From the IMG/VR virus record IMGVR_UViG_3300024264_000013, positions 1-64,000 of that record: a stretch of DNA of 64,000 bases. One strand, written 5' to 3'. Under the pieces are notes generated by a model, which worked only from the letters and a program-made list of their open reading frames with translations, made no database searches and was not told the DNA's origin. This DNA comes from a virus. Below are positions 10,309 to 14,382 of the stretch, in pieces. Made by a program: the position numbers and the translations under genes. Every line of letters starts with the position of its first letter. The stretch's first letter is position 1.

Positions 10309-10935
10309 ATGAATCTACTAAGCGAGAATTTGACATTCGACCAGGCTAAAATGGTTGTTGAGTCAACTGAAAACTCAAATGGAGGCAAAGATCTTTATTT
10401 AAAAGGTATTTGTATTCAAGGCGGAGTACGCAATGCAAATGAGCGTGTTTATCCTGTAAATGAGATTGGAAGGGCTGTCAAAACTCTCAATGATCAAATT
10501 GGGACTGGTTATTCAGTTCTCGGCGAAGTTGATCATCCTGAAGGCCTAAATATTAACCTTGATCGTGTTTCACATATGATAACAGATATGTGGATGGAAG
10601 ACAACAACGGTTATGGCAAAATGAAAATTTTACCGACCCCGATGGGACAATTAGTTAAAACAATGCTAGAAAGCGGAGTTAAACTAGGAGTTTCATCGCG
10701 TGGTTCGGGTGAAGTTAATGAGTCCGGCGATGTGTCGGGCTTTGAAATAATCACTGTGGACGTTGTGGCTCAGCCTAGCGCCCCTGGTGCATATCCAACA
10801 CCAATTTATGAACATCTTATGAATGCACGTGGGGGAATGAAGGCATATGAATTAGCACAGGCAACAAAACAAGACGACAAGGCACAAAAGTATCTTAAGG
10901 AATCGTTGATTAACATAATCAACAAACTCCAGTGA
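10309..10935 (+). CDS. 21: Prohead core maturation protease gp21
   Basis: A 208-residue serine protease of the T4 gp21 / herpesvirus assemblin-like family. It cleaves scaffold and capsid proteins after Glu during head maturation. The catalytic His lies in GEVDHPEG (H76) and the nucleophile in KLGVSSRGSG (S129 or S130). The N-terminal block YLKGICIQGGVRNANERVYP (residues ~30-49) is typical of the family. The region QPSAPGAYP (~155-163) is also typical. Good AGGAG ribosome site at 10296. It is followed by gp22 after 16 bp, as in T4. Confidence 0.93.
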   Translation: MNLLSENLTFDQAKMVVESTENSNGGKDLYLKGICIQGGVRNANERVYPVNEIGRAVKTLNDQIGTGYSVLGEVDHPEGLNINLDRVSHMITDMWMEDNNGYGKMKILPTPMGQLVKTMLESGVKLGVSSRGSGEVNESGDVSGFEIITVDVVAQPSAPGAYPTPIYEHLMNARGGMKAYELAQATKQDDKAQKYLKESLINIINKLQ

Positions 10936-10951
10936 AACTAGGAGAAAAAGT

Positions 10952-12052: not shown

Positions 12053-13225
12053 ATGTCAGAACTACTCGAAAGCCGCTGGCAGGAGACTAAAACTGCATTG
12101 TTGGAAGGCCTAAGCGGAACAAAAAAATCCGTTATGGGTGCAACTTTGGAAAATACTAGAAAGTATTTGTCAGAGACTGCAACAGCAGGTAGTACTTCAG
12201 CCGGTAACGTAGCAACTCTTAACAGAGTTATTTTACCAGTAATTCGTCGTGTAATGCCAACGGTAATTGCAAACGAATTAGTTGGCGTACAGCCAATGAC
12301 TGGTCCAGTGGGTCAAATCCACACACTAAGAGTCCGTTATTCGGACACTTTTAATGCAGGTGCATCAGGTGCAACTGCAGGTGAAGAAGCACTTTCACCA
12401 TTCAAGATTGCTGAGTCTTACTCAGGTGCAACAGACGGCAAAGCGGCAGCAACCGCGGCGCAAGAAGGTAGTGCCGGTAACAAACTAAGCATCCAGATCC
12501 TAAAACAAACTGTTGAAGCGAAAACTCGTAAGTTGAGTGCTCGTTGGACGTTTGAAGCGGCTCAGGACGCTCAGTCACAGCATGGTATCGATGTTGAAGC
12601 AGAAATCATGGCGGCATTAGCCCAAGAGATTACTGCTGAGATCGACCAAGAAGTTCTTGCTTCACTAAGAACACTTAGTGGTACAGCCGTTGAAACATAC
12701 GACCAAGCCGCAGTAAGTGGTACAGCAACTTTTGTTGGTGATGAGCATGCCGCGTTGGCAGTTCAAATTAACAGAGCGGCTAACTTAATCGCACAGCGTA
12801 CAAGACGTGGTGCTGGTAACTATGCAGTGGTAAGTCCATTTGCATTAACAGTACTTCAGTCTGCAACAACTTCAGCGTTCGCAAGAACAACTGAAGGTTC
12901 GTTCGAAGCACCAACAAACACTAAGTTTGTAGGTACATTGAACAACGCTATGAAAGTATATGTAGATACATATGCTGGCGATAGTACAGCAGTACTAGTA
13001 GGTTACAAAGGTTCATCTGAATCAGATGCACCAGCGTTCTACTGCCCATACATTCCATTAATGAGTAGTGGTGTTGTAATGGATCCGGATACATTTGAGC
13101 CAGTAGTGTCATTCATGACACGTTACGGCTATGTTGAACTATCCAACACAGCGTCTTCACTTGGTAATGCAGGTGACTACCTAGCGAATGTAGCGATTAC
13201 AAACGGTAACGTATCATTTAGTTAA
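12053..13225 (+). CDS. 23: Major capsid protein gp23
   Basis: The 390-residue HK97-fold major capsid protein. Recognisable gp23 segments: VILPVIRRVMPTVIANELVG (residues ~65-84), VQPMTGPVGQIHTLRVRYS, KTRKLSARWTFEAAQDAQSQ and the C-terminal DPDTFEPVVSFMTRYGYVE. A likely gp21 cleavage site is L39-S40-E41, before TATAGSTSAG. The protein is much shorter than T4 gp23 (521 aa), consistent with a reduced insertion domain in marine relatives. It holds the only GCAGC pentamer I found in the window (12446-12450). A strong terminator follows the stop. Confidence 0.95.
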   Translation: MSELLESRWQETKTALLEGLSGTKKSVMGATLENTRKYLSETATAGSTSAGNVATLNRVILPVIRRVMPTVIANELVGVQPMTGPVGQIHTLRVRYSDTFNAGASGATAGEEALSPFKIAESYSGATDGKAAATAAQEGSAGNKLSIQILKQTVEAKTRKLSARWTFEAAQDAQSQHGIDVEAEIMAALAQEITAEIDQEVLASLRTLSGTAVETYDQAAVSGTATFVGDEHAALAVQINRAANLIAQRTRRGAGNYAVVSPFALTVLQSATTSAFARTTEGSFEAPTNTKFVGTLNNAMKVYVDTYAGDSTAVLVGYKGSSESDAPAFYCPYIPLMSSGVVMDPDTFEPVVSFMTRYGYVELSNTASSLGNAGDYLANVAITNGNVSFS

Positions 13226-13283: not shown

Positions 13284-13355
13284 TAGTACGTTCATCCTAA
13301 GGGACGGAAGTAGCATAAGCGAAGGAACGCACTTAACTGTAAAAGGAAGAGTGTT

Positions 13356-13527: not shown

Positions 13528-13556
13528 TTGACTTTATATATAAAGTCTGTTATATT
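13528..13556 (+). promoter_or_regulatory. Sigma70-type promoter of the structured RNA
   Basis: TTGACT (13528-13533), a 17-nt spacer and TATATT (13551-13556) give 5/6 matches to each consensus hexamer. The predicted start near 13563 coincides with the 5' strand of the closing stem of the RNA that follows. This is unlike the ATAAATA late elements around it. Confidence 0.75.
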
Positions 13557-13562
13557 AAGTAC

Positions 13563-13809
13563 ATAAGCAACAGAAGAGTAATTAACTTTTGTTTATAGTG
13601 CAAGGAAGAGGCCTTTACCAGAAGGGTCTAACTTGACTGTCCAGGGGTGGTACCCAGGCTTGGTAGTAGAAATACGCTGAGTCACATCGCATTAACCCGC
13701 GGGGATAGGTTGTACGGTTTAGAAATGGTATTTCGGTCCGTACTTGTAGGTGTACCCAAGTCCTACCTATTTTGCTTATATTTTAAAAAGGCACTTCGGT
13801 GTCTTTTTT
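13563..13809 (+). ncRNA. Putative structured phage ncRNA, about 250 nt
   Basis: No ORF fits this stretch. It starts just after a sigma70-type promoter and ends in a TTCG-loop terminator. The ends pair perfectly: ATAAGCAA (13563-13570) with TTGCTTAT (13772-13779). Internal helices: CAGAAG/CTTTTG (13571-13576 / 13586-13591); an 8-bp hairpin 13609-13616 / 13622-13629 with a 5-nt loop; GGG/CCC at 13645-13655; GTACGG/CCGTAC (13712-13717 / 13738-13743); ATAGGT/ACCTAT (13705-13710 / 13765-13770). CTTGG/CCAAG (13659-13663 / 13756-13760) would cross the last helix and make a pseudoknot. I see no match to tmRNA, RNase P, 6S, tRNA or a riboswitch class I know. Function unknown. Confidence 0.72.
13785..13809 (+). 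terminator. Rho-independent terminator of the ncRNA
   Basis: AAAAAGGCAC (13785-13794) and GTGTCTTTTT (13799-13808) form a 10-bp stem (one G-T pair) capped by TTCG, with the T-run in the 3' arm. A canonical UUCG-type terminator. Confidence 0.93.
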
Positions 13810-13840
13810 CTTGACAAATTTTCCTATATACTTTTATTTG

Positions 13841-13848
13841 ATAAATAC
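13841..13848 (+). promoter_or_regulatory. Late promoter ATAAATAC
   Basis: GATAAATAC lies about 85 nt before the ATG at 13933, downstream of the ncRNA terminator. The leader (13855-13920) contains a possible TGCAG/CTGCG stem and an AAGGAG ribosome site. Confidence 0.65.
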
Positions 13849-13932
13849 TTGTGTCGATAATCGTGCCGTGCAAGCGGACTTATGCAGAATTGACCCACTG
13901 CGTATTACTTAGAACGTAACAAGGAGAAACAA

Positions 13933-14382
13933 ATGGGAAGACCATTAAACAAAAGAAACTTTGGTGCGCCAACAGCAGGTGGATCAGAGATTAAAGTAAA
14001 TTTTCATAACGGAACAGCAGTTAAAGAGGGCTATATTGTAAAACAAAAAGGCTCTAAGAGATTTGTGTGTGAAGAAATTGGTACAGGTGGCGAATTTACT
14101 TGTACACTAACAACTGGTAAATTACCAGCGGCATTAGCGGCAGGCGAAATGTCAATTTCAGTACAAGGTAATGATGCAGAAACTTATGGTGTAAGTAAAA
14201 TTACAGGTCGTAAAGTTACTGTTGCTTCACCGAGTGCAACTGGTACTAACGTATTAGCAGGAACATCATTAGCATTCCAAATGGGTGCCGCGGCAAGTGC
14301 CGGCGTTGTACGCATGGAAGAAGCAGGCGATGACAACACACTAGTTGGAACTGATGACGACGACTTTACAGAAGACGCATAA
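13933..14382 (+). CDS. Small virion protein, MGRPLNKRNFG family, 149 aa
   Basis: Beta-rich protein starting MGRPLNKRNFGAPTAGGSEI, with an acidic, disordered C-terminus (DDNTLVGTDDDDFTEDA). The next gene encodes a paralogue with a near-identical start. I recall similar MGRP-starting proteins annotated as virion structural proteins in marine T4-like phages, but the exact role (capsid decoration or fibre accessory) is not known to me. A strong AAGGAG site precedes the ATG; the downstream paralogue follows after 8 bp. Confidence 0.75.
   Translation: MGRPLNKRNFGAPTAGGSEIKVNFHNGTAVKEGYIVKQKGSKRFVCEEIGTGGEFTCTLTTGKLPAALAAGEMSISVQGNDAETYGVSKITGRKVTVASPSATGTNVLAGTSLAFQMGAAASAGVVRMEEAGDDNTLVGTDDDDFTEDA

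Follow-up and report, generated by a model that had tools for sequence, protein, structure and literature searches.

A divergent manA-family RNA of marine T4-like phages predicted to be a stand-alone RNA gene

Results

Genomic context and family assignment

The window analyzed here, a stretch of 64,000 nucleotides, is part of a 96-kb viral contig in which a T4-like major capsid gene (gp23) is followed by a glutamine riboswitch aptamer, a 50-codon gene, a manA RNA, and a gene at 13933 (Table 1). The nearest relatives of the gp23 (65 to 70% identity) belong to jumbo T4-like phages (Sinorhizobium phage Phosso, Vibrio 2.275, PA5oct, and the 121Q group), and the contig may for this reason belong to a much larger genome; manA was absent from the jumbo relatives picked by gp23 (Phosso, Vibrio 2.275, and PA5oct). 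The 50-codon gene behind the glutamine aptamer had no match in Pfam or PHROG, and a search of the window for tRNA and tmRNA genes recovered none. A T4-type late promoter-like motif, GATAAATA, is placed after the terminator of the RNA and so suggests a separate start for the gene at 13933. Behind this motif sits a sub-threshold freshwater-2 RNA, the leader of the same gene, copies of which score above threshold in three related loci; the glutamine aptamer, manA, and freshwater-2 together place three structured RNAs within ~650 nt.

Table 1. Coordinates of genes, regulatory signals, and RNA helices at the manA locus of the window.
Feature	Position	Strand	Remarks
T4-like major capsid gene gp23	12053-13225		Pfam PF07068
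Glutamine riboswitch aptamer	13287-13333		RF01739, 51.6 bits; upstream of the 50-codon gene
Sigma70-type promoter (predicted), TTGACT-17-TATATT	13528-13556	+	Extended -10 (TGt); predicted start ~13563
Structured RNA, divergent manA (RF01745)	13563-13779	+	Rfam match spans 13571-13776
P0 5' strand, ATAAGCAA	13563-13570	+	Pairs with TTGCTTAT (13772-13779); closing helix beyond the Rfam model
P1a hairpin	13571-13591	+	First hairpin of the RF01745 model
P1 5' strand	13595-13598	+	Pairs with 13767-13770; 98% of cells paired; two-sided changes in 3/4 pairs
P2 (13601-13604/13632-13635) and inner hairpin P2b (13610-13615/13623-13628)	13601-13635	+	Two-sided changes somewhere in 10/10 pairs
P3 (13637-13642/13703-13708)	13637-13708	+	Encloses P4, P5, and P6; 99.3% paired; two-sided changes in each pair
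P4	13644-13655	+	Loop GUGGUA; 100% paired
P5	13657-13683	+	91% paired
P6	13687-13702	+	95% paired
P7 and P7b hairpin	13712-13743	+	92% and 86% paired; two-sided changes in 8/9 pairs
P8 hairpin	13746-13766	+	Conserved 11-nt loop; 100% paired; two-sided changes in 3/5 pairs
Intrinsic terminator (predicted)	13785-13810	+	UUCG tetraloop hairpin and T-run
T4-type late promoter-like motif, GATAAATA	13840-13847	+	Beyond the terminator; from sequence
Freshwater-2 RNA (RF02980), sub-threshold	13862-13935		42.1 versus 49.9 bits; leader of the gene at 13933

A sequence-only reading of this region had proposed a structured noncoding RNA belonging to no known class, but the Rfam covariance model for manA (RF01745; Weinberg 2010, PMC2864571; Rfam 14 update, PMC7779021) contradicts the latter point, matching positions 13571 to 13776 over its full length (model positions 1 to 192 of 192) with 56.3 bits against a cutoff of 55.2 and an E value of 1.1e-11. 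The helices of the model are present, among them the outer pairing around the multibranch fold, and the window RNA is a divergent manA subfamily member. It shares with the filed manA family all model helices, the GUGGUR loop, the P8 motif, and an occurrence in marine T4-like phages, whereas it differs in belonging to a subfamily near or below the cutoff, in an extra P0 helix, in a predicted promoter and terminator of its own, and in a location that is not a 5' UTR. Close relatives in other contigs score 48 to 55 bits against RF01745, compared with 77 to 122 bits for canonical members, and window-type relatives often fall under the cutoff, where Rfam would miss them. A BLAST search recovered a relative in one cultured phage, Pelagibacter phage Mosig (74.5%), where the RNA is unannotated. 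The stretch had also been described as free of open reading frames, which holds in substance even though a mechanical 55-amino-acid GTG frame exists; we rejected coding by this frame, since 34 of 50 homologues contain a stop in it and many have length changes that break the frame.

Secondary structure and covariation

The predicted fold has an energy of -81.9 kcal/mol (z score of -2.23), and 5 of 200 shuffled sequences were equally stable. Compensatory changes, whose absence had been named beforehand as refuting the RNA, are abundant in an alignment of 50 representative homologues. The consensus comprises ten helices with 53 pairs, and 93.3% of cells are paired. Two-sided changes occur in 42 of the 53 pairs (480 cells, versus 147 in shuffles), and the covariation score is 0.558, whereas shuffles gave 0.203 and sliding the structure along the alignment gave no more than 0.129; none of 500 shuffles did as well. 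The several helices proposed from the sequence are thus real.

The two crossing pairings proposed alongside them (13659-13663/13756-13760 and 13705-13710/13765-13770) did not fare as well: 66.4% of their cells are paired, versus 64.6% in shuffles, and we rejected both pseudoknots, the strands of which compete with the well-supported P5, P3, P8, and P1. The original description of manA draws a pseudoknot bearing a question mark (PMC2864571). Another pseudoknot could be hidden by invariant loop bases; one candidate is a kissing contact between GGU in the P4 loop and ACC in the P8 loop, the key bases of which hardly vary.

A conserved promoter-RNA-terminator layout

The promoter, the matched ends, and the UUCG terminator read from the sequence are all present in the window (Table 1). 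Seven bases separate the -10 box from ATAAGCAA, and P0 receives modest support, as pairing is better between flanks of one and the same RNA than after the flanks are swapped or shuffled. Taken alone, however, the promoter and terminator signals of the window are weak, with 3 promoter-like sites found in the region versus 4.9 expected by chance and a simple terminator scan that did not list the plus-strand hairpin, and they gain weight only through their conservation across loci. A perfect palindrome, GACTTTATATATAAAGTC, lies between the -35 and -10 boxes (13530 to 13547). Its counterpart in one homologous locus is GACTTCTATATAGAAGTC, with both arms altered, a pattern pointing to an operator or a hairpin; the palindrome is not kept in all loci.

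A degenerate-pattern search returned ~120 viral stretches, including a few chance matches, and the loci of the window-type subfamily were reduced to a set of 88 non-redundant phage loci. Measured against control windows at random positions rather than matched intergenic windows, 64 of the 88 loci have a sigma70-type promoter in the 85 nt upstream (7.6% of controls), 51 of 88 have a terminator in the 85 nt downstream (5.7% of controls), and 50 of 88 have both; these counts are not independent and are inflated because the loci are related. The terminator begins 10 to 21 nt past P8, just behind the closing helix, in 48 of 50 loci, and its sequences are unrelated from locus to locus, so that homologues carry unrelated replacements of the UUCG hairpin of the window. 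More diverged alleles at the gp23 locus (38 to 111 bits with the model built here) mostly keep the promoter-RNA-terminator layout. A T4-type late promoter motif follows the RNA within 140 nt in 52 of 85 loci and precedes it in 2 of 85; because late motifs lie downstream and scarcely upstream, the RNA is probably outside the late program of its neighbors. These patterns lend good support to the prediction of a structured noncoding RNA that is transcribed separately, between a promoter and a terminator of its own.

Association with tRNA and tmRNA genes

At ten loci the RNA begins 2 to 12 nt past a permuted tmRNA gene, and at another the order is promoter, manA, and tRNA-Gly, with the tRNA beginning ~3 nt behind the RNA. 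A second pattern scan yielded a canonical-type set of 37 loci, consisting of 35 viral loci from IMG/VR and two cultured phages. In 30 of these 37 loci, many of which are near-duplicates, a same-strand tRNA lies 3 to 6 nt upstream of manA, and many also have a tRNA within 8 nt downstream; the tRNA identities vary. The loci without an upstream tRNA either lie at contig ends or belong to a single recurrent type (four loci). When canonical loci were scanned with Rfam, manA was confirmed in 14 of 14, and 13 of these 14 have a tRNA no more than 7 nt away. The order is tRNA-Leu, manA, and tRNA-Asn with gaps of 0 to 1 nt in S-CREM1 and tRNA-Arg, manA, and tRNA-Asn in ACG-2014f. S-CREM1 is annotated with manA beside tRNAs, and its paper retains the cis-regulatory label; in the open-access texts consulted, we found no description of a tRNA-cluster location as a feature of the manA family.

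Two further observations concern these regions. The wcaG RNA (RF01761), a different family that is likewise typed Cis-reg, is present in or near the manA-holding tRNA regions of S-CREM1 and three other phage loci, and its cis-regulatory label may need the same recheck. In addition, a recurrent unannotated motif, ATAGGTTCGGTTGAAAAAAATCGGTAAGATC followed by CTTAATAAG and a GC-rich hairpin, adjoins the tmRNA-manA pair at L153 (about 10817 to 10936, minus strand), L106 (870 to 975), and L135, and partially at three more loci; it has no Rfam match and is possibly another structured RNA.

Among the 369 gammaproteobacterial and 292 cyanobacterial genomes sampled, a strict-filter survey found no manA, but controls were likewise without matches and the survey did not recover the two copies that the literature records in gammaproteobacteria, so that absence from bacteria is only suggested by a survey that found nothing anywhere. 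A pattern scan of genome contigs returned loci without a match to the model built here.

Discussion

The manA RNA is typed Cis-reg in Rfam, and Weinberg 2010 presents it as a riboswitch candidate located in potential 5' UTRs (PMC2864571), a riboswitch or cis-regulatory view repeated in later work (PMC9964418, PMC12197685, and PMC7657543). Under such a view the fold would sense a metabolite and the terminator would serve as the expression platform controlling whichever gene follows, in the window the capsid-neighbor gene at 13933. The terminator does lie directly behind the fold, one downstream gene family is common to 26 of 80 loci, and in Mosig (rubrerythrin) and three other loci the RNA is found just ahead of a start codon, where a cis role is possible. 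That common gene, however, partly reflects the collection of loci by gp23, and it has a late-promoter motif and a freshwater-2 leader of its own. Mechanical open reading frame calls place 38 families next to the RNA over 80 loci, with opposite-facing neighbors at seven loci, and canonical members are flanked by tRNAs that leave hardly any spacer. The RNA is not found in the 5' UTR of a controlled gene, as a terminator and a separate late promoter motif precede the next gene; this affects the functional label and leaves the homology untouched. The terminator also lacks the complementarity that attenuation would involve: pairing of the terminator strand with the aptamer averages -8.5 kcal/mol at its own locus versus -8.3 kcal/mol with other loci (mean rank, 0.52; n = 50). 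Because the terminator arm shows no complementarity to its own RNA beyond that to the RNAs of other loci, there is no attenuator signature over the 50 loci, and we rejected this pairing. A cis-acting riboswitch is an unlikely explanation on balance, and the textbook label of manA as a gene switch is probably wrong. The close spacing between manA and tRNA or tmRNA genes could also mark an element that serves RNA operons in processing or as a spacer, with a fold that guides tRNA or tmRNA cleavage and is functionless once cut out, but this is highly improbable given a window in which no tRNA or tmRNA was found and ~50 loci where the RNA has its own promoter and terminator and the fold is still strongly conserved.

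The window RNA is very probably a manA-family (RF01745) RNA gene that is phage encoded, stands alone, acts in trans, and is not a riboswitch of the next gene. Its family membership, its helices, the layout of the unit, the proximity to tRNA and tmRNA genes, and the diversity of the genes behind it are observed here, whereas its transcription, processing, and trans action are what we infer. In the window it would be transcribed from its own sigma70-type promoter, starting at ~13563, the first base of P0, fold into about ten helices, and end at the intrinsic terminator at ~13809, a unit located within the late capsid gene block and yet outside the transcription program of that block. The same RNA would be cut from tRNA or tmRNA transcripts in cyanophages and several other marine phages, such that two routes may free the product, one through its own promoter and terminator and the other through tRNA processing, and manA would then be a stable structured RNA with a role in trans. 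Because manA travels with tRNAs and tmRNA, our guess is that its target in the infected cell most likely belongs to translation or RNA processing.

A bolder reading, which we would sooner doubt than accept, is that the whole manA family constitutes a phage-specific trans-acting RNA involved in the viral takeover of translation or RNA processing, for example, as a decoy for the ribosome or a tRNA-handling enzyme or as a cofactor of either, and that marine T4-like phages would keep it either in tRNA/tmRNA operons or in a promoter-RNA-terminator cassette. In T4 itself, RNAC and RNAD sit in the tRNA cluster. These phage small RNAs of unknown function (PMC9697503) are the nearest precedent, resembling manA in being phage encoded, small, and associated with tRNA genes; they are late RNAs, whereas the promoter of the window RNA is of the sigma70 type.

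The riboswitch-candidate status of manA dates from 2010, and phage papers published since then have kept calling it cis-regulatory. Should manA instead prove to be an independent RNA gene in marine T4-like phages, ligand searches would be misdirected, and manA would be a widespread phage noncoding RNA that could be tested directly in cultured phage-host pairs, such as those of S-CREM1, ACG-2014f, and Pelagibacter phage Mosig.
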